Shown here piece after piece: positions 1-61,810 of a DNA stretch of 64,000 nucleotides (positions are counted from its first letter, which is position 1; every line of letters starts with the position of its first letter). Where the stretch lies: assembly GCA_011109175.1 (NCBI GenBank), contig RDEW01000019.1, positions 495,482 to 559,481 on the forward strand, written 5' to 3'. The notes beneath the pieces were generated by a model. The model saw only the letters and a list, made by a program, of their open reading frames with translations, was not told the DNA's origin and did not search any database. Made by a program: the position numbers and the translations under genes. The stretch comes from Dicyema japonicum. Lineage: Eukaryota > Dicyemida > Rhombozoa > Dicyemidae.

Positions 1-1716
1 TCAGTGATCTCCATCATAAATGTATATGCCCCAACCGGAGCACGTGTATCAACGAATATCGAAGAACTGGATACGTTTTACTCTACTCTCACAAGTGTGT
101 ACAACTCACTTTCATCCTCTTACTTTCTTTTTATCGCCGGGGACTGGAACGCCAGGGCCGGAAAAGCAAGACCTGGTGAAACGTGTATTGGATCCCACGG
201 TAGAAACCGCCGTAACATCCCCGGAGAGGCATTAATACAATTTTGCACGGCATTCAACCTACTCATATGCAACACTTGTTTCAAGCACCCGGCAAGACAC
301 AGGACCACGTGGGTTGGTACCAGAAAAGGCAAATCTGGAAACACAGTCAATATATACAATCAGATCGACTATATTATCTGCAAGCAACATCAGAAGGCCC
401 TCCTACAGGACTCGAGATCTTACGGTGGACTTGAAACAAGTAGCGATCATAAACTTGTGGTCGCCCGGCTAGTACTTAAAAGAATCCATGGAATACACGG
501 GAAACACAAAGGCCTTACCTCAGTACGTTTCGACACTGAGAGGTTACGCTACGAAGAATCCACCAAATGTCGTTATAGTGCAGTTCTGAGAGATAGCATC
601 AACAGTATTAACCAAAATCAGCCGACAAACAGCTTATGGGATGAAATAGTGGTTGCTATCCAAAACACAGCCTTTAGTGTGCTTGGTCACATCACCAAAT
701 CTCGTCACAAACAATGTAATCCGGATATCGGACAACTCTCTGTAACACAGAAAGAGCTCAGACTCCGGATGGAAAACACAAACGCTCCGGAAGATATCAA
801 AGTACTGCGCACCCAGAGAGGGAGAGTCTTAACGAAGATCAAACAAATACAAAGATTCCTTGCCAAAAATGAAGCTGAGGAGAAAATCTCAGACATATTA
901 AAGTACAAGAACGGACCAAGAATGTTCAAAGCAATCCGGCTTCTTAGCAGAGAAAACTGTCCAATTTCGTTAACTGTCCATGACAACCTTGGTCACGACG
1001 TTATCGGGACCATTAACAAAGCAAACGTTCTGGCATCCCATTTTGACCTTATGTTCAACAAACAGGACGCGGCTGACCAAGCAATGAAATCTCGGAAGTC
1101 TTACAAGTACACTCTAACTAGCCCTATTACCATATCCGAAACTCAACAAGCTATTAAAAAATTAAATACCGGAAGATCTGCCGGACCAGACTTCATTACT
1201 GCAGAACTTTTACAATACGGCCCGGAGGAGCTAATTGAAATGATTACTAACATTTTCAACCGGTCTCTCGAGGGTGCAGATGAACTGGAACTGGGAAAAG
1301 GGTGGCTAATTCCACTACAAAAACCGGGAAAAAGTAAAGGCCCCCCTCACAACTTCAGACCTATTATACTCCTAACCTCCATACGAAAAACATTATCCCT
1401 CATTGCTTTAAACCGAATAAAGGAGAGGGTGAACATATTTCTTTCGGACGGCCAAAGTGGATTCCGGACGGGCAGGTCCACGGCTGACGTGGTATGGGGG
1501 CACAGGTGGTATTGTGCCCTGTGCCAAAAATACAAAAAATCTATTGAGATACTTGGTATCGACATGTCCCGTGCGTTCGACTCGGTGGACCGTGGAAAAC
1601 TTATGGAAGTGTTGGAGAGTTTTCTACTGCCTGACGATGTCAAAATAATACACTTACTCATGCGGAACACTCAACTTGCCGTCAAAAATTGCCGGACAAG
1701 CACCTCCACAGACTGA
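1..1716 (+). mobile_element. LINE-A non-LTR retrotransposon, AP endonuclease plus N-terminal part of RT, open frame
   Basis: One uninterrupted 570-codon frame enters from the left edge, so the 5' end lies outside. The first ~155 residues are an APE-type endonuclease: INVYAPTGA, the catalytic GDWNARAG (residues 46-53) and SSDHKLV (about 145-151). A basic linker follows, then reverse-transcriptase fingers and palm: NFRPIILLTS, SGFRTGRSTADVVW and, near residue 520, GIDMSRAFDSV with the first catalytic Asp. The frame stops (TSTSTD-stop) just before the GVPQGDSLSP block seen in the sister copy at 59.4 kb. YADD, the C-terminus and the 3' tail are missing, so this copy cannot be active. A 1.7-kb intact frame suggests it is young or was recently truncated. 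The clade is uncertain; only APE-type LINE is safe. Confidence 0.88.
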
Positions 1717-11045: not shown

Positions 11046-12290
11046 TAAATAATGATAATAATAAATTATAGTTTGAATTTTAACGTGGATAATATCTTTA
11101 ACAAGTTGCTAATTCTGGAGTGGCTTGTGCTCGGGAGAATAAAAGAATTTTTACCAGAAAAGAATTTTCAACATGGATTCAAAAATGAGAGATCCACGTC
11201 TACATATTTTCAAACATTGACCAAATTCGGATTCACAACCAAGCCGAGACACTTTAAAACAGTGCCATGCTCAATCGACATATATGCTCAATCGACATAC
11301 ACAACGCTTTTGACTCAGTCTCGAAGAAGATTCTATCGAGAAAAATATTTCAATCGGAGATCAGAGGGAAGCTAAAGCTTTGGATTATTAACTTCCTAAG
11401 TGGACGAAGGGGACGTGTTTGCCTCGGAGGTATGAAATCAATCTCACGGTTTTTTCCAAACGGAGTCCCTCAAGGATCGCCTTTATCCCCTTCTCTTTTT
11501 AACTTCTTTCTGGCGGATATTCCGAGTCTTGAATCTGATAATGATGTTCTACTTTCCTATGCGGATGATATTGTGTTGGCTTCGCGAGATCAGGACATCC
11601 AGAGGGCCACAGAAAGAATACAAATTAACCTGGACAGGCTTAATGCCTGGATAATGGAAAACCGGCTCGTGGTGAATGCAGAGAAGTCGTCTACGTCACT
11701 ATTTACCTCGGACAAAAAATTGGGAAGGAAGACAGTCACCTTGAAGTTAAACAAGGTCGGCATCCCTTTCCACAGATGTCAAAGGATCTTGGGTGTAACA
11801 ATTCATATGCATCTCTGTTAAACACCTCACGTAGAAAACATTCTATTGAAATGCGAGAAGAAACTGAACGTATTGAAAAGTTTATCGGGAATATGGAAGA
11901 GTGGTACTCACCCAGTCTTGATGAACGTATACAAACAATACATCGAGTCATGTTTCTCATATGCATGCGCCTCGTAGGGTCCGTCCATATCTTGGACAAA
12001 TATGAGGAAAATTGAGGAAATGGCTAAGAGGGCTTACAGAGTAACGGAGCGTTGGATTTGTGAAGATCATCGATTCGGACCTACGCCTCTGGAGGCCCTG
12101 ATGAGACTTGACTCCAGATCACGGGAAATTGGCCCTGAAAATTCAAGCAGCCGTCCTGTACGTTCATGCACGGGCACGAAGGAAGAACGACGGGCAAAGA
12201 TGAGGTCTTTGTTAGAATGCATCGGGATCACGTGATAATTAGTTTTGTTTTACTGTGGTCTTGGGTTAAATAAATAAAATAAAAAAATAA
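11046..12290 (+). mobile_element. LINE-B RT and C-terminus
   Basis: Contains RT domain pieces in shifting frames: FQHGFKNERSTSTY (11170), SIDIHNAFDSVSKK (11270), NGVPQGSPLSPSLF (11460-11500) and YADDIVLA with the catalytic YADD at 11558-11569, then NAEKSSTSLFTSD. The C-terminal frame ends RAKMRSLLECIGIT-stop at 12235, followed by TAATTAGTTTTG and an A-rich tail. Frameshifts near 11265 and 11800-12000 inactivate it. The endonuclease half is missing. The last ~185 nt are almost identical to the piece at 61.96 kb. Confidence 0.85.
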
Positions 12291-18321: not shown

Positions 18322-18805
18322 GTAAATTGGTTGAGGTGGTGACGACGCCTCTATTGCACTATGTCTTATTCGTATTCCTTACCGACTTTTCCGTTCACTC
18401 TGGGATCCTTCAATTGCAGAGGACTTAAACAACCTTACAAGAAACACCAACTGGTATGCGATCTAACCAAATATGACGACTCTGTCTGCTGTCTACAAAA
18501 GACAAAAACGACCGTACAATGTATTGAACTGTTTGGAAAATTCCACCTTTTTATCCTCCCATCGACCTACCGACATTATGGTCTCGGATTTGCAATCCAT
18601 CAGGACCTGATTCACTACGCCACAGCAGTGTGGACATCATCTGATATTATAATAGAAATGGCGGACGACCTGGACTACCTAAGAGAACTAGTGCGTAACA
18701 GAAGATCATGGTCGAAGTTGACGAAGAGGATGATCCGGAATATGGCACAAGGGAAACTTAACTAATTTTATGTTTTCCGGGAGTGCTTTTTAATTAATTA
18801 ATAAA
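18322..18805 (+). mobile_element. internally deleted LINE-A with a 134-codon fusion ORF
   Basis: Starts with the LINE-A 5' motif (GAGGTGGTGACGACGCC, 18332). The intact ORF 18361-18765 joins the start of the endonuclease (LGSFNCRGLKQPYKKH, CCLQKTKTT, GLGFAI) directly to the last ~35 residues of the RT protein (ADDLDYLREL, RMIRNMAQGKLN-stop), followed by the normal 3' tail. All RT is deleted. It keeps both element ends, so it resembles a non-autonomous LINE derivative. Confidence 0.8.
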
Positions 18806-23229: not shown

Positions 23230-23450
23230 AATGAATATTTGCCGCGTGGCGCCATGTGGTGCTGCGTGGTTAATTGTGGTTTAAATTTTCTGCTTGCTTG
23301 TCTGTTCCTCCTCTCTCTTCCGAGATGACAAGAGTGGCGTCATGTGATCCACCTGTCTAGGTGTCGCCCAGTGCCAGGCCGGCATGAAAAAGGATCATTT
23401 GCTCTCCCCCACTCCATTGAAGGGGTTTCCACAACTGTATATAATGAACG
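23230..23450 (+). mobile_element. SINE-2 5' half, fused to the copine start
   Basis: Nearly identical to 17409-17630 (GCGTGGCGCCATGTGGTGCT, AGTGCCAGGCCGGCATGAAA). Homology runs through the copine ATG at 23444: the SINE reads TAATGGACG where the gene reads TAATGAACG. The SINE's own 3' part and tail are absent. An ATG inside the SINE at 23384 is in frame with the gene, with no stop between them. Confidence 0.85.
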
Positions 23451-25315
23451 CGAGCGAGCCGTTATCGAAAGTATTAATTGGAATTAACTGCTTAAAACTA
23501 ATCTCATCCGATTTGCTCTCAAAATCAGATCCTCAAATTTCAGTAAAAGAGTACATATCTGGAAAATGGATCGAGGTAAAAGAGTACATTAATTAAGATT
23601 TACCGAACCGAAAAAATAATGAACAGTTTAAACCCGAGTTTTAGCGAGTTTGAAAAAGACTACTTTTTCGAGCGACAACAAAAACTAAGATTTGAAATTT
23701 ATGACGTCGACGATCACAGAAATAACAATTTTATTGAAAAGGGCGATTTCCTTGGTCAGTTAACAGCAACTTTAGCGCAAGTTGGTTTAAAATATAGCTT
23801 TAAGCTCGCCAGAGCTGGAAGGACATCTGAGAGACTTAAGAAATTCGACGGAAAGGATCTCAAAAGCGGGTCAATTGAAGTTTCAAGTTCAATGTTATTA
23901 AGATTAACGTGCGAGAAGTCCAGAATTTCAAAGATCAATTCGAACTGGGATTCTCTGCCTCGAATTTACCTAAGAAAGTGACTTTATAGTTTATTTTAGG
24001 GCAAATTTTTCAAGGAAGATCCTTCAACCTGTCTGACCATTGAATCGATTGATCATAGTAAACAGTGGAAAGTGGTTTACAAATCAAACGTGAGAATTTT
24101 AAGCTTAACCTACAGACAGTCAAAGAATCAAGAAATCCGATTTACAATACATTTGCTATCAGAATGTTCAAACTGACCACAAACGAAGGGCAGCTTGAAG
24201 ACAAAATCAACGTTGCAAAATTTTTGTAATTTAGATCTCCATATGTAAGGCTAAAAAACTCTCTTCAGTTTATGGCTTGGTCACAATTTCCATATCTGAG
24301 CTGATCAATGCGGCAAATTCAAATTCTCAGGTAAAATTAAATTTTAATGCTACAAAAGAGATCTTGGGAAATTTCACACGAATCTGGAAGCTTTAATATA
24401 AACCTTGTATTGTGCAAAATGAGTCAGTGCTATACTTTTGTTGACTACATTCAAAGTGGATTGGATCTCAACATCGCAGTTTCGCATTTTTAAATATTTA
24501 TTTTTAATTAATTTAAAATTAATTTTTATAAAATAATTAATTTTTAAGGTTGCTATTGATTTCACGGCATCGAATGGTGATCCAAAAAAATCAAACTCTC
24601 TTCATTATTTAAACAGTTATGGAAGTTACTTACAAAATGATTATACCCAAGCAATCGAGGCTGTCGGCCGAGTTATAGAAGATTATGACACGTGATTGTG
24701 AAATAATTTATTTTAGCGACAAAAAGTTTTTAGTTTTAGGATTTGGAGCGAAACTGAGGAATAATAATTTTTCTTTTGTCAGTCATGATTTTCCAGTAAA
24801 TATGAATCCTGAATTTCCTGAATGCTTCGGAATTGACGGAATACTCCTGGCTTACAGGAACTGCATTCTAAACGTTCAATTATTTGGCCCAACCAATTTT
24901 GAACCTGTAATACGGCGAATCATTAGTATGGCTTCAAATTTTTCAATTTCTGCAATGCGATATTTTGTGCTGCTAATTTTGACTGACGGAGTTATCACGG
25001 ATTTTCAAAGAACCATTGATGCCTTGATCGAGGCTTCTGAGTTGCCAATCTCAATCATTATAATTGGCGTTGGAAATGCTGACTTTACTGATATGAACAT
25101 GCTGGACAGCGATGATAAACTTTTGAGATCTGGTCGAAGACAATCTAAAAGGGATATTGTTCAATTTGTTCCCTTTAACTACTATCGATCGGTTTTAATG
25201 GTTTAATTATTTTTTCAAGTCTTTGGATATGCTAGCTAAACAAGTTCTAGCAGAATTACCAGAACAAGTTGTTAATTTTTATAAATCTCATGGGTTGCCA
25301 CCTCGCAGTATTTAA
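23444..25315 (+). CDS. copine, ten exons with micro-introns
   Basis: Copines are cytosolic Ca2+-dependent phospholipid-binding proteins that move to membranes. Spliced length is 534 aa, normal for the family. Exons: 23444-23575, 23598-23879, 23903-23977, 24000-24089, 24116-24211, 24235-24330, 24359-24478, 24549-24691, 24717-25191, 25220-25315. Introns are 22, 23, 22, 26, 23, 28, 70, 25 and 28 nt, all GT-AG. C2A: LLSKSDP, NSLNPSFSEF, LRFEIYDVDD, GDFLGQ. C2B: SASNLPKKGK, KQWKVVYKSN. The vWA-like copine domain has AIDFTASNGDP (MIDAS-type), SLHYLNS, VGRVIEDYD, FGFGAKL, GPTNFEPVI, LLILTDGVITD, SIIIIGVGNADF and IVQFVPF; it ends AELPEQVVNFYKSHGLPP. No frame lesion. The N-terminal start is uncertain because the preceding sequence is SINE-2; ATG 23444 gives the usual short N-terminus, ATG 23384 would add 20 SINE-encoded residues. 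Confidence 0.95.
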
Positions 25316-25689: not shown

Positions 25690-28085
25690 CATTTACATTT
25701 TACCGCCGGGATCCTGTCCTAATAACTATGTTCCGAAGCTCGACAAACTACAAGAAATTAAATGTGTTACTATGTGGGGATTTCAACGCCAAACATCCGC
25801 AATGGCTCAGTACCCAGTCGGCAGACAAGAGGGGGAGTCTAATTATCGACTCTCTCGAAAAATGGTGATTCTGAATCACCCGAACATCTTCACAAGGATA
25901 CCAGTTTGAAGAAATAACAACCCAACCTCCCCCGACATATCCTTGCTTCCTCTAGGATTGCCCGAAGATTTCATGGAACATCTCCTACGATTTTCATAGT
26001 GATCATAATCCGATTATATTAAAACTGAGCGGATTCCATAATTCACGTAGAATTAAGGCAACCTTCAAGATCTACAAGAAAGCTGACTAATCGAATTTCA
26101 AGCTCTTCATTGACCAGAACCTAATACATTTTGATTCCACCTCATTTTCCTCTATCGAAAAAACAATGGACCATCTAAACAATGTAATCCTTCGAGCTGA
26201 AAAGTTATTTGTCCCACGTGCAGTTTACAAATCCTACAATCCTACTCTGGACTAGGAGACTCGTCTCCTCATCAAACAAAGAAACTCCCTGAAGATGAAT
26301 CATCAACAAATCTTTTCTGATTTGAAAATATAAAATGCTTAAATTAGAAAATTACAAAACTCATCAAAGAAAAGAAAGATAGGGCGTAGAACCGCCTATT
26401 ATCATCTATTGGACATATGAAATCCACGAGTCTTTTATGGAAAACTATTCATCGAATCAAGCTAAACTCATCAGATGTATCAGAATCTTTTTCTGCTCCA
26501 AATACTGTGCAAGCTAACAACCTAATGAAATACTACGCATCTATAAGTCATAAGAACTTCTCGAAATTTCATTCTTGTCACCTTCGGAATTTAATGCCTA
26601 AACTAACTTCATGGATCAATTTATTTACATATGTCGAAGTCACACAGGCTATAAGATCGATGAAGATATCTTGTACGTGTGGTCCTGACGGCATTCCAGG
26701 AATTTTGCTAAAACACCTTGGTAGTGTTGCAATCAATTCGATTACGTCAATTTTTAATTTGTCTTCTAACAAGAACGTCATACCATGCAAAAAAACTCAC
26801 TTATAATACCCCTCCTAAAAGGAAAACCGAAAAACCTTACCTTCTACCGTCCAATTTCATTAACGTGCGCATTATCGCGCATAATAAAGAAACTCGTACT
26901 TTGGAAAATTAAACCCCATTTGCTTGACTGTCACTTTCAACATGGTTTCAAATGTGAGCGTTCAACTACGACACATTTAACTTCACTGTCTCAATTTATA
27001 TCAGAAGGGTTCAACGACCGAAACGCTATCTACGGACAATATTGTCTCCCTGGACATCCAGAAGGTGTTCAATATTGTGTCCGAGAACATTACTTACGAA
27101 AAAGGTTTTTGACACCAATTTGAAAAGATGGATAGCCAATTTTCTTCCGGAAGAAAAGGACGTGTATGTACAGGCCACGCAAGATCGAGGTCCCGTCTCT
27201 ACCAAATGGCGTCCTTCAAGGATCGCCCTTCTCTCCGGCGTTATTCAATTTATTCCTAACGATTTACCCTGCCTTGGAGGACCAGATTCAATGCTTCTCA
27301 CATATGCTGACGACTAATTATCGCTAGCAGGAACAAATACGTGGATATGCAAAATCAGAGCTTCAGTCACATATTGACGACCTGGGAGCCTGGTTGAAAT
27401 TGAATCGTCTCTCCATATCCAGGGATAAATCAACGTATACTATCTTCACCAGAGACAGAAAAGAAAAATATACACTGGATTTGAACATATATGAGACTTT
27501 TTCATCCAACTATTCTGGGAGTGACTTTCGACCCTATGATGACATTTTCTCAACATGTGAAGAACGTTATGACAAAGGGTTTCAGGAAACTGAATATAAT
27601 GAAACCGCTCTTAAAGTCCAGGCCGTCACGGGAATGCTTGCACAATCAATTTCTAAAACCGACGGTAGAGTATGCTTGTGCCTCATGGGCCTATGGAGCT
27701 TCAATATCCAATTTATACGAAATCAACTCCTTAACAGGCATACTTGCAGGTCTAACAATACCCCCGATCTTTTTTCCCCAATGCTTGACTACGTTGCAAT
27801 CAAAAATAACGGCTCCGGCTTTATCAGTCTGTGTGGGTCAAGAAACAAGTCGTTTCTTTCATTCAAGCCTATAAGCCTCAAATACACGTAATTTGGGGAA
27901 AAAACCCACCCCTCTTCAAACTTTAATGAAAGATGATCGTCGCTATACAGGAAAGCCGTGAGTACTCTGGAGGAACATAGGAAAAATCTATCGATCCTGT
28001 TGAGGCGTACCGGGATCACATAATTAGTTGGTTTACTCCTTCTTTCTTGGTGTTCCCTTTTCAGGGTTATTAAATAAATAATAAA
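25690..28085 (+). mobile_element. LINE-B, near full-length, decayed
   Basis: Endonuclease: LLCGDFNAKHPQW (25770-25810) and SDHNPIILKLSG (25998-26035). Linker: AEKLFVPRAVYKSYNP (26200-26245). RT: CTCGPDGIPGILLKHLG (26670-26720), FYRPISLTCALSRIIKKLV (26840-26900), FQHGFKCERSTTTHL (26935-26980), a damaged palm, and SMLLTYADD at 27290-27317. C-terminal domain: KGFRKLNIMKPLLKSRPS and PTVEYACASWAYG (27570-27700), ending LSILLRRTGIT-stop at 28022. The tail is TAATTAGTTGG...CTTTCTTGGTG and AAATAAATAATAAAATAATAA. The 3' UTR matches the SINE-2 tail. Confidence 0.85.
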
Positions 28086-39947: not shown

Positions 39948-40825
39948 ATGTATTTTTGCGTTTTCATCTTATCATTTCTAGTAGAATCTCAATGTCATCG
40001 ATGTCAAACTTTTATTGAGGATGATTTTGTGATCAAAGTAGAAAACGAAGGAAGTGTGATGCTTTGGCATGAAAACTGCTTTAAATGTATCTCATGTGGA
40101 TTGAATTTGTCTCTTAATAAGACTTGCTTGTTGAAGGATAAAACACATCTTTATTGCCGTGAAGATTATTTAAAGTGGTTTATAATATTTTCATTTTACT
40201 AGATTAAATGAATTTCACTGTAAAATTTGTGGAGAAATAATAAGTATGGTTGATAGCGCTTTCAAACACGAAAAATATTTGTATCACGTAAATTGCTTTG
40301 CTTGCGAAAAATTTTTACAAGCCTCATGCGGGGGATTTGTTTTTTTCTCTAAAAGGTCGTTTGTTTTGCTCAAATCATTGCGAAACTGACTGCAAGGTCA
40401 CAAACAATGAAGCCGATAACAATTTAATCAGCTATATTCGTCAACTTGAAGGTATTATTTTTTTTTTATTTTCTAAAATTGACAAATTTCATTTAATTTT
40501 TAATAATTTAATGAAAATGATTATTTTAGACGGTGAATTTGAAATGTGTAAATTCCAATCAAATCAATTTCAAAATAACTACAGTTTATGTTACCCCAAT
40601 AAAGACCAAACGGAAAATATACAAAGATTAAAAAGTCCTCGATTTCGCACTGTATATACGGATGATCAATTATACACCTTAAATAAATTTTATAAGGAAA
40701 ATACAAGACCAGATTCCCTTATGAGGGGGCGGATTGCAAAAATAACAGGTCTTGATCCCAGATCTATCCGTATATGGTTCCAGAATAAACGCAGTAAAGA
40801 AAAGAAAAACGTACTGTGTCTATAA
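39948..40825 (+). CDS. Islet-type LIM-homeobox transcription factor, one frame lesion
   Basis: Nuclear transcription factor with two LIM zinc fingers and a homeodomain; Islet proteins specify neuronal and other cell fates in animals. LIM1 (about 39990-40174): CHRC, WHENCFKCISC, CLLKDKTHLYCRED, all zinc ligands present. Intron 1 is 40175-40202 (28 nt) and restores YCREDYLK-LNEFHCKIC, matching the LIM1-LIM2 junction of Islet. LIM2: CKIC, YHVNCFACEK, then a shift of frame at 40312-40313 that removes the third Cys, then GDLFFSLKGRLFCSNHC. Intron 2 is 40452-40529 (78 nt, no in-frame stop). Homeodomain 40628-40810: FRTVYTDDQLYTLNKFY, NTRPDSLMRG, ITGLDPRSIRIWFQNKRSK, with RPD-LM and SIRIWFQNKR diagnostic of the Islet class. 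Stop 40823-40825. The 5' start is unsettled: an unspliced ATG at 39948 gives a short hydrophobic leader, so an upstream exon is likely. The lesion is a net 2-nt loss relative to a TGT codon: pseudogene, assembly error or alternative splicing. Confidence 0.85.
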
Positions 40826-50412: not shown

Positions 50413-50715
50413 TCAGGATGATTTATCTTCAGAACTAGCAGGATCATGATCCTTCAAAAGTTGGAGCAACCTTTCATCGGTCTATAAAATTAAACACTAC
50501 AATACTCGTGGAGTTTTAGGATTGATTCTTACGTAAATCTTGCACCCTTCATTACGAGTTGATACATCGATTGTGTCAGGATTTAGAGAGCGAAAAAATT
50601 CTAATATACTACGATCATATTCATCTAAATAATATCTTTTCCTTTTTATGTTTATCATAGGCTGTTTTTTTGAGGCGTTAGGTGAGTCGCTATCTGAAGT
50701 CGTAGTCAAAACCAT
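50413..50715 (-). CDS. unassigned 92-aa gene with a 24-nt intron
   Basis: Exon 1 (50715-50506, 70 codons) begins MVLTTTSDSDSPNASKKQPM and contains KRKRYYLDEYDRSILEFFRS and DTIDVSTRNEGCKIYV. Intron 50505-50482 (24 nt, GTATTG...TTATAG) joins in phase 0 to exon 2 (50481-50413): TDERLLQLLKDHDPASSEDK-SS-stop. An alternative donor GTAAGA at 50532 would give a 51-nt intron and drop nine residues, also in frame. The protein is charged, with an Asp/Ser-rich N-terminus and no membrane segment. The micro-intron matches the other genes of the window, which supports a real gene. No family recognised. Confidence 0.55.
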
Positions 50716-52207: not shown

Positions 52208-52670
52208 ATGAAGGACAAACAATCAAAATCTATAGAAGACAAAAATATAGAATTTTTCAGAGAAGCTGAAAAGTATGCATGTGATCTATTATCTCTGAAG
52301 TCTGAATCACTAGCTTTAAACAAACAAAGGAACAGTAATCGTGAAGCTATTCGGTAAATTTATCAAAGTATGTCTTAGAGCTCTGGAAAGTCAAGGGAAA
52401 GACTATTCTTGGATTTATTTGAATAATTTATTTATTAAGTTTGACAAGAACTCTGCGCTTAATAGGATCAAAAAAGGTGAAATTAGAATTCTAATGGTAG
52501 ACCAATCAACGTTGGAATCTCGAGTAAATGAAATTAGGAATGAAATGAAGGTGTGTGTTGAAAAGCTTGATGACTTGGATATTATTGATAACCACCCAAT
52601 TTCCGCATTTCGGCTAAATCCAATTTCTAATTCTGACATGAAAAATATTAAAAATTTTTATCAGTTATAA
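52208..52670 (+). CDS. PDRG1 homologue (prefoldin-like), three exons
   Basis: PDRG1 is a small prefoldin-like subunit of the PAQosome (R2TP/prefoldin-like) complex that helps assemble RNA polymerases and other machines. Exons: 52208-52353, 52379-52476, 52501-52670; introns of 25 nt (GTAAAT...CTTAG) and 24 nt (GTGAAA...GGTAG). The spliced product is 137 aa against ~133 in human. Matches to the family: NKQRNSNREAIRALE (human TKRNQNREGLRALQ), YLNNLFIKF (human GNMFIKM), a second coiled coil DQSTLESRVNEIRNEMK, and the terminal SAFRLNPISNSDMKNIK (human KGFNLNPLNQDELKALK). The layout is two coiled-coil helices joined by a beta hairpin. The ATG at 52208 is the first in frame before the first helix. 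A poly(A) signal AATAAA lies at 52751-52756. No lesion. Confidence 0.9.
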
Positions 52671-59344: not shown

Positions 59345-60595
59345 ATTGTATTAAATCGAATCAAAAGGAAAGTCGACAAATTCTTATCGCCTGGACAAAG
59401 CGGTTTCAAGGAAAAAGATCAACCGCCGACATAGTATGGACGCACAGATGGTCTGGCGCTATATGTCAGAAATACAAAAAATGCATAAAAGTTATGGGAT
59501 CGACATGAGTCGTGCATTCGACTCTGTACACAGGGGACTACTTATTAACATTCTGAATACATTTCTAGACACGGATGATGTTAGAATTATTTCCTTGCTC
59601 CTAGAAGATACTCACCTGGCTGTCAAAATCGGAAATACCGCTTCCAATTTTTTTAAAACCACTCGGGGAGTTCCACAAGGGGATTCGTTGTCTCCTATTC
59701 TATTTATTATTTATCTTGAGGCTGCACTGAGGGATTTCAGATTATCCATTAAAGGACAATATTATGAGTTGATTTACGCAGACGATCTGGACTTTGTATC
59801 GGATGATTCTGAATTTCTCAAGTACATAAACGAACATCTTCCAAAAATGGTTCTTGAAGATAAACACTGACAAAACGGAATTTACATCATTCAGCCGTGC
59901 AGAGAGGATATCCGACGAGACGTGGAGAAGACATAAGAAGGTCGGATCGCTCTTGGGGACGAGGAAGATGTAGCTCGACGGAAAATCCTTGCATCTGGTG
60001 CTTTCAGAAGCCTATCTAAAATATGGAGTTCGGGAAGAAGACTTTGTGGAAAAATAAAGCTTATGATATACAAATACATTGTTGTGCCCATCCTAATATA
60101 TAACTGTGGGACATGGGGTTTGTCTAAACGGGCAATGGAGTCTATTGACAGTTTCGACCGCAGTATGACAGTTTCGACTTAATATTCACTACAAAATGAA
60201 GATCAAAAACGAACAATTATATAAGTTGAGCAAAACAGAACCATTATCCATGGAAATCAGAAGATCGAGATGGAGACTGTTCGGTCACATTATGAGGATG
60301 GATCTGGATGTCCCGGCAAATCACGTAATAGATGAATATTTCATGGAAAAAACAAAATCATTCCGAGGAAGGCCTAGAACAACCTTACCTATCACGCTAA
60401 ATGAGGACCTAAAAGCCATAGGCAGGGAGTTGAAAACAATGGATGACCTCGATGAACTAAGAGATCTTGCGAAACGGAGAGGTCTTTGGATGCGATTGGT
60501 GCAAAGGGTGGCCGGCGCGGCACAAGGGAACCTTAATTGACTTTTGTTTTTTTTATGTGTTCTCGGCAGTGCTGATAATAATAATAATATAAATT
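59345..60595 (+). mobile_element. LINE-A RT and C-terminus, least decayed 3' copy
   Basis: RT frame 59436-59870: YGIDMSRAFDSVHRG, LAVKIGNTASNFFKTTRGVP, QGDSLSPILFIIYLEAALRD and YADDLDFVSDD (YADD 59774-59785). One frameshift near 59865, then LGDEEDVARRKILASGAFRS and LIYNCGTWGLSKRAME. A second shift leads to the frame 60196-60540: SRWRLFGHIMRMD, RGRPRTTLPITLNEDLKAIG, DDLDELRDLAKRRGLW and ending RVAGAAQGNLN-stop. The tail GTTCTCGGCAGTGCTGATAA plus (AAT)n follows. Two or three small lesions only. The endonuclease and 5' end are absent. Confidence 0.9.
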
Positions 60596-60967: not shown

Positions 60968-61810
60968 TCATGAAGAAAATAAATTAATAAATCCAAACAT
61001 AAAGAACACAAACGACCCAACATAATTCACTAAAATATAAAAAAATAAATACAAGTTTTGGTAGAGAGATAGTCAGCCAAAAAGTGCCCGCCAAAAACGG
61101 CGGTAAGGACTGCAAAGCGAATGCCCCAAAATAGCTCCAAAAACGACTCCATAGAAATTTTAAAAGTCACAACAAATTAAACTTTTTGAGAAGCTGCAAT
61201 AATCGTAGAAAGTTGTGATCTGTCGCCCCATTCAGCTAAGAAAACCATAATAAAAGCTTGAAAAAATATAGAGGACGCAATAACACGTAACTTATAACTT
61301 CCCCCATAAACTACGGTGGACTGACTCTCTATGGCCTCAATGCTTGGCTGAACTGGTTACTTACAATTATAATACATTTAAAGATTCTTTAGCCTCCAAA
61401 TATTCAAGGTTCACAGCAGAGTCACATGCCTCTATTTCTACAATAAATGGGTTAAACTTAAAGTACCAGCTTCATGGAATAATTTGGCTGAAAAAGCGAA
61501 CAAAATAAAACACGTGAAATCTGATATGAATTTCTGAGGAAGAAAGTTAAAAAATTTTCCAAAACAAGCTATAAATGATTATAAATAATACCAGAGATGA
61601 CTGTTAGGATAATCAAAGCAAGGATGGACCCACAAAAACTACCAACCTTGAATGAGTCATCGCTAATATGGCTGTAACAAAAAAAGTTCTATCTCCAAGT
61701 TCTGATATGATGATAATTATCAATGTGGCAAAAAAGCCGTGGTATTCTCCATTTTGTACAGCATCACTTTGAATTGCATCATTTGCTTGCATTAGATATG
61801 TTGAAAACAA
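60968..61810 (-). CDS. GDT1/TMEM165-family membrane transporter, with frame lesions
   Basis: Golgi-type cation/proton exchanger family (human TMEM165, yeast Gdt1), involved in Ca2+/Mn2+ homeostasis and glycosylation. Family signatures: first ELGDRTFFVTAILAM (human ELGDKTFFIAAIMAM), second FLAEWGDRSQLSTIIAAS (human FLAEWGDRSQLTTIVLAA). Exons on minus: 61810-61592, 61568-61467, 61437-61376, 61347-61183, 61159-61053, 61029-60968; introns of 23, 29, 28, 23 and 23 nt. Also ISDFTCFILFAFSAKLFHEA, GVVFGAILGHSLC, AVFGGHFLADYL and NYVGSFVFFMFGFINLFSS-stop. Lesions against the family: one G too few at 61629-61631 (VVFVG-SILAL), acceptor AA instead of AG at 61160, one base too many near 61110-61113 (GHSLC/VLTAV). 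The first in-frame ATG is at 61792; a hydrophobic RRVLILFSTYL stretch upstream suggests a missed 5' exon with a signal peptide. Either a unitary pseudogene, assembly indels, or genuine alternative introns. Confidence 0.85.

Follow-up and report, generated by a model that had tools for sequence, protein, structure and literature searches.

Predicted ultrashort GT-AG introns with weakly specified 5' splice sites in a dicyemid genome

From alignments of genomic DNA with homologous proteins, we infer with high confidence that the short GT..AG segments interrupting the genes of this genome are dicyemid spliceosomal introns, approximately 21-30 nt long in the sampled genes, which the major spliceosome would remove by intron definition. 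An earlier note on the window (the whole 64,000-nt stretch analysed, C94:495482-559481 of the assembly) had proposed that its genes are built on GT-AG introns of 22-29 nt. This observation is confirmed by protein-guided alignments, and the wider reading of GT-AG introns of about 21-30 nt is supported both in the window and at the loci sampled from the genome.

The earlier list comprised 18 GT-AG introns, nine of them in a copine gene, two in Islet, two in PDRG1, four in GDT1, and one in a gene at 50.4 kb. The copine was aligned using a spliced protein-profile aligner with a flat intron cost, an intron range of 15-150 nt, and no preference besides the end dinucleotides, the profile having been built from 20 of 120 listed copine homologues. 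The same DNA was also realigned 256 times, once for every possible pair of end dinucleotides. The copine features are as follows, with all introns and the 24-nt segment placed by alignment.

23444..25315, plus strand: copine gene, 532 aa when spliced, the protein matching copines (best E 2e-157 among the matches listed)
23576..23597, plus strand: predicted intron 1, 22 nt, phase 0
within 23598-23879, plus strand: C2 domain of the copine (Pfam match, PF00168)
23781..23804, plus strand: GT..AG segment of 24 nt, not listed earlier, open in frame if kept
23880..23902, plus strand: predicted intron 2, 23 nt; 23 nt at the corresponding site of a second copine, by eye
23978..23999, plus strand: predicted intron 3, 22 nt
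24090..24115, plus strand: predicted intron 4, 26 nt
24212..24234, plus strand: predicted intron 5, 23 nt; 63 nt there in the second copine, by eye
24331..24358, plus strand: predicted intron 6, 28 nt; the run with free end dinucleotides placed other gaps here
24479..24548, plus strand: predicted intron 7, 70 nt, AT-rich; 23 nt there in the second copine, by eye
24692..24716, plus strand: predicted intron 8, 25 nt, phase 2; also 25 nt in the second copine
24709-25188, plus strand: PF07002 domain of the copine (Pfam match)
25192..25219, plus strand: predicted intron 9, 28 nt; also 28 nt in the second copine

The flat-cost alignment returned all nine of the listed copine introns (22, 23, 22, 26, 23, 28, 70, 25, and 28 nt) and scored 464 spliced versus 236 unspliced. 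Among the 256 end pairs, GT-AG ranked first with 464.0, ahead of a runner-up at 432.4 and a median of 317.2. With the end dinucleotides left free, the score rose to 500, boundaries moved by at least a few bases, and additional gaps of 13-16 nt appeared, one of them replacing a listed intron. Since the free run scores higher and shifts the boundaries, the exact ends of the copine introns rest upon GT-AG together with homology. Homology locates the places at which removal is needed, not every base of the intron ends. The additional 24-nt segment at 23781-23804 may be coding.

The remaining listed genes of the window yielded more varied results.

39969..40822, plus strand: Islet-like LIM-homeodomain gene (LIM PF00412, homeodomain PF00046; by reading)
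40175..40202, plus strand: predicted Islet intron, 28 nt, phase 2, recovered by alignment
50482..50505, minus strand: GT..AG segment of 24 nt with an internal stop, in the ORF at 50.4 kb (by reading only)
52238..52652, plus strand: matched part of a PDRG1-like gene, aligned to a PDRG1 sequence
52354..52378, plus strand: predicted PDRG1 intron 1, 25 nt, by alignment
52477..52500, plus strand: predicted PDRG1 intron 2, 24 nt, by alignment; open in frame, its removal deleting an 8-aa insertion
60971..61741, minus strand: GDT1/TMEM165-like gene with two E-x-G-D motifs (motif scan, reading, and alignment)

For PDRG1, the spliced alignment scored 61.9, the unspliced one 38.4, and the best of 40 shuffled DNAs 17.0. 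In Islet, the aligner did not use the listed 78-nt intron; retaining it leaves the reading frame open, so that its removal is unnecessary. Two unlisted gaps of 76 and 21 nt were also proposed, the 76-nt gap lying near a frame break. By reading, the Islet frame seems to be broken in the G run 40330-40334. The GDT1-like gene (minus strand 61741-60971) scored 86.4 spliced versus 58.0 unspliced, and listed lengths of 29, 23, and 23 nt reappeared beside gaps of 26, 40, and 48 nt, the first two fusing to 61 nt at a higher intron cost. As a T run (61634-61638, minus strand) seems to break the frame and makes the full list untrustworthy, the GDT1 introns were left out of the recovered count. The ORF around the 24-nt segment at 50.4 kb had no Pfam match. 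Altogether, 12 of the 18 introns proposed earlier were recovered by alignment (nine of nine in the copine, both in PDRG1, and the 28-nt intron of Islet), while four in GDT1, one in Islet, and the one at 50.4 kb were not secured.

Beyond the window, 28 loci were drawn from 142 protein-kinase matches: the 17 that scored highest, several of those ranking behind them, and five entries made up of multiple pieces. The sample is non-random, with the multi-piece entries chosen partly for visible short exon gaps. Across these loci, GT-AG again ranked first of the 256 end pairs with a score of 4779, leading the next pair (4233) by 546, whereas alignment without introns reached 2864. Among the 113 kinase GT-AG introns, 89 (79%) measured 20-30 nt with a mode of 22-23 nt, compared to an average share of 31% and a maximum of 57% under the other 255 pairs. 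Refitting the splice sites by EM on the kinase loci plus two copines yielded 131 introns with a median of 23 nt and an interquartile range of 22-26 nt, 112 of which fell within 20-30 nt, in keeping with a genome in which most introns are approximately 22-30 nt. The proposed lengths of 15-19 nt and most of those above 40 nt are probably artefacts, some adjoining frame breaks, and individual boundaries can be wrong.

When examining the splice sites themselves, it is evident that little information resides at the 5' end. Measured against exon background in 101 introns of 20-28 nt, exon positions -3..-1 carry 0.85 bits and intron positions +3..+8 only 0.43 bits, while the 3' side (-10..-3 plus exon +1,+2) carries 2.02 bits. 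The 5' site amounts to an exonic AG followed by GT(A/T), with +4, +5, and +6 close to background, and is therefore nearly uninformative beyond GT. After EM, GTRAG occurred in 3 of 131 introns and a G at +5 in 27 of 131; among the 19 introns of actin, aldolase, PDRG1, and Islet, GTRAG occurred once. A canonical 5' site hidden from the aligner was also considered and rejected, as EM started from a canonical matrix and from a flat start converged on the same weak site. As a contrast set, 504 exonic GT..AG decoys of 20-28 nt (22 per kb) were separated from the introns with an AUC of 0.77 by the 5' side, 0.90 by the 3' side, and 0.94 by all features together. The T-rich 3' ends described in the earlier note were likewise borne out, T making up 54-58% at each of positions -3 to -6 in 121 introns, and internal TTAG was rare (2 observed versus 13.7). 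Exonic GT..YAG decoys of 20-28 nt numbered 195 versus 239 +/- 15 in synonymous shuffles, but those of 40-48 nt were also low (216 versus 247 +/- 15), with 219 versus 230 +/- 14 at 60-68 nt. Since the 40-48 nt decoys are depleted as well, selection against exonic decoys is no more than suggestive.

U12-type 5' splice sites resemble RTATCCTT. Such a site (GTATCCTT within one mismatch) was found in a single one of 124 introns, so the introns do not have a U12-type character. The single U12-like 5' end is probably that of a 22-nt intron at locus L043 beginning GTATCGTT, and it may be due to chance.

A classical branch-point motif was not found in 121 introns, in which YTRAY occurred 32 times versus 27.8 +/- 4.7 in shuffles and CTAAY 7 times versus 4.8. 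One alternative is that the branch point is fixed by position instead of motif, through an adenosine (TNA) at -7/-8 of the 3' splice site. An A stands at -7 or -8 in 77 of 105 introns versus 50.5 expected, and TNA in 50 of the 105, compared to 23.9 +/- 4.3 across 500 shuffles, in which the highest count was 37, and to 69 of 415 exonic YAG. Moreover, the kinase introns show A at -7/-8 in 67 of 89 versus 42.2 expected, and the 15-nt introns of Stentor, whose branch A sits at an almost constant position, provide an analogy (PMC9505925). However, the position was chosen after scanning along the intron, and the excess did not replicate outside the kinases (20 of 35 versus 18.9 expected), with 10 of 16 in the copines and 10 of 19 versus 10.7 in actin, aldolase, PDRG1, and Islet. 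We therefore regard a position-defined branch point as rather unlikely, and the adenosine excess at -7/-8 as unproven.

It is also conceivable that the segments themselves result from chance or from alignment, with common GT..AG pairs bridging frame breaks or loosely conserved stretches. Such pairs are indeed plentiful, as the copine region contains 306 of 18-90 nt and exons carry 22 decoys per kb. Furthermore, free end dinucleotides outscore GT-AG and several genes carry frame breaks. However, an artefact of this kind would fit poorly with the lead of GT-AG over all 255 other pairs at the 28 kinase loci and with the concentration of its introns at 20-30 nt, and also with the aldolase gene on contig C68. 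This gene needs five exact excisions (23, 27, 23, 23, and 23 nt, by eye), after which its 361-aa product aligns gaplessly with the 361-aa Dicyema acuticephalum protein A4PCF1 (269/361 identical, 75%, 601 bits). As a general account, the artefact is largely refuted and very improbable.

The aldolase is equally informative about the source of the DNA. The second-best match by score was a 612-aa plant protein with 52% identity, and among the 120 matches listed, no other with a query coverage of 97% or more exceeded 62%, the value of a metagenome protein. In a tree of 27 rows, the clade with the D. acuticephalum protein was supported 100/100. The dicyemid origin hinted at earlier is thus borne out, on the basis of one gene, while a 25% difference in aldolase indicates a species other than D. 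acuticephalum. A4PCF1 is presumably the product of the aldolase cloned from that species (PMC2222250). Actin was uninformative as a species marker, as no dicyemid appeared among the best 120 matches listed, the top of which was crowded by long and fused actins.

The actins do reveal conserved intron positions. The predicted introns measure 27 and 22 nt at L041; 25, 25, 25, and 27 nt at L051, plus a 19-nt gap resembling a frame-break bridge; 28, 25, and 25 nt at L052; and 27 and 27 nt at L040, plus a 17-nt gap following a frame break. Positions after RPRHQ/RPKH(V/L) and after PLNPK are common to all four loci, and one after YLMK is found in L051 and L052. Similarly, most intron positions of the second copine (C141, L001) are common with those of the window copine, as judged by eye from junction peptides. 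At two corresponding sites, an intron of 23 nt in one copine faces one of 63 or 70 nt in the other, the longer ones being AT-rich, which suggests that intron length turns over while position stays.

Ciliate internal eliminated sequences have a similar length range in Paramecium. By analogy, the segments could be DNA-level inserts excised in some nuclei, for which the shared length range and the many circular contigs reported in Dicyema sp. (PMC6543705) would speak, but this is very improbable and the least credible of the alternatives given the GT..AG ends on the coding strand with GT-AG first of 256 pairs, the positions common to paralogous actins and, by eye, copines, and the study of cDNA and genomic clones in which same-size dicyemid introns are reported as spliceosomal (PMC2222250).

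Two further observations concern the condition of the genes and the window. Apparent single-base frame breaks occur at the G run 40330-40334, at the T run 61634-61638 (minus strand), in a C run in L040, and also in L051. Three of these lie at homopolymers in genes otherwise well conserved, which suggests uncorrected sequencing indels or young pseudogenes. Such breaks can mimic introns in homology-based models. In addition, ORFs and decayed ORFs that by eye resemble the endonuclease and reverse transcriptase of non-LTR retrotransposons are found at window positions 1-1713, 11258-12012, 18343-18762, 25737-27888, and 59355-60537.

Genes for several components of the major spliceosome were also matched in the genome. 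U1 snRNA yielded 11 matches, none above the Rfam cut-off (best 69.0 versus 69.5), U2 yielded 25 (22 over the cut-off), and U6 yielded 10 (nine over the cut-off), which together with the GT-AG ends points to U2-type introns. In the two U1 copies that were read (L014 and L015), the ACUUACCUG 5' end and the AUUGCACU loop are intact. In both, the loop of stem-loop 1, usually GAUCANGAAG and the binding place of U1-70K, is altered. SF1 had one match. The U2AF2-like (U2AF large subunit) pieces at C114:219969-221071, separated by gaps of about 50, 22, and 23 nt, matched exon by exon, none over the whole-protein cut-off. The METTL16 family (PF05971) had one match of 123.3 bits covering positions 6-149 of 299. 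Several simple causes for the weak sites consequently find no support: neither of the two U1 copies read, out of 11 matches, shows a changed 5' end, both U2AF2 and SF1 were matched, and loss of the U6 methylase as a cause of the absent +4A preference is countered by the PF05971 match. Separately, a single U12 snRNA match (C68:163471-163599, 85.4 bits) was encountered, which may mean that this reduced genome retains a minor spliceosome.

Based upon these features, the spliceosomal introns would presumably be recognized as follows. U1 would meet a 5' site reduced to about an exonic AG and an intronic GTW, while U2AF and U2 would read a T-rich stretch ending in YAG, which supplies the bulk of the signal. 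The short, near-fixed intron span would provide the remainder. In this scheme, 3' end, exonic AG, and short span together would substitute for the 5' signal ordinarily found on the intron side, with the major spliceosome removing the ultrashort introns via intron definition. A stronger version, which we advance tentatively and consider somewhat improbable, is that 5' site choice in dicyemids is decoupled from intron-side U1 pairing. In that case, the 3' end, the exonic AG, and the size of the intron would together identify it as a unit of 22-28 nt, and position, not motif, would set the branch A. The basis for this proposal is the contrast between perfect ACUUACCUG U1 ends in the two copies read, with METTL16-like, SF1, and U2AF2-like genes, and a near-uninformative stretch from +3 to +8.

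Introns of 22 nt offer scant space for the usual separate signals, and dicyemids therefore show an animal spliceosome working on the least information. With U1, U2, U6, U12, SF1, and U2AF2-like genes and the introns themselves available in a 191-contig genome, the question becomes testable in an animal. There is also a practical aspect, as most genes of this genome would be fragmented by gene-prediction programs that do not accept introns until well above 22 nt.

Ultrashort introns, a weak 5' site, and a missing branch signature are already published traits of dicyemids, which are parasites (PMC2222250, PMC2483917, PMC6543705, PMC6736024). The introns that the earlier note found surprising are thus supported, but their size is a published trait of the phylum; since published dicyemid introns share both the size and the weak 5' site, the phenomenon is known and the present case is another member. 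What is added is confirmation at genome scale, the intact U1 ends beside near-uninformative 5' sites, and the intron-length differences between paralogues. Among titles and abstract openings on dicyemid splice sites and branch points, with subscription papers mostly outside the scope, none linked dicyemid introns to dicyemid snRNAs. In D. acuticephalum, introns were reported at 26.2 +/- 1.9 nt (n=16; PMC2222250) and at a mean of 24.93 nt (s.d. 2.51, n=41; PMC2483917), the latter report describing a 5' boundary of 0.5 bits as the weakest known and the branch-point signature as absent. The 0.43 bits at +3..+8 found here compare closely with that printed value. The 131 aligned introns here have a median length of 23 nt. 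Restricting them to the 118 no longer than 40 nt gives a mean of 23.9 nt, nominally lower than 24.93 (p 2e-4), although a true difference in length is not established because the median is 25 nt in the 19 introns that belong to neither kinases nor copines. For Dicyema sp., a median intron of 27 bp was reported, with roughly two thirds below 30 bp, in a paper that cites Ogino et al. 2010 (PMC6543705). The Dicyema japonicum genome was reported at 67.5 Mb with a GC content of 36.7% and a mean intron of 38.2 bp (PMC6736024). The present assembly of 64.67 Mb, with 35.4% GC measured on the window alone, agrees with a genome of about 65-68 Mb and about 37% GC.

Outside the phylum, Stentor, Paramecium, and the Bigelowiella nucleomorph similarly have introns of 15-35 nt whose splice sites are weak or which lack a strong branch motif (PMC9505925, PMC2483917, PMC2222250), although these hosts of tiny introns, unlike dicyemids, are protists or a relict nucleus. 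Stentor additionally has a near-fixed branch A (PMC9505925), a feature not established in the dicyemid introns here. A parallel among animals is provided by the Fritillaria tunicates, in which the site rules are likewise relaxed while the core spliceosome is conserved (PMC13326754). In Fritillaria, however, most introns escape GT/AG and the U2AF subunits are duplicated (PMC13326754), whereas GT-AG fits best in the dicyemid genome.
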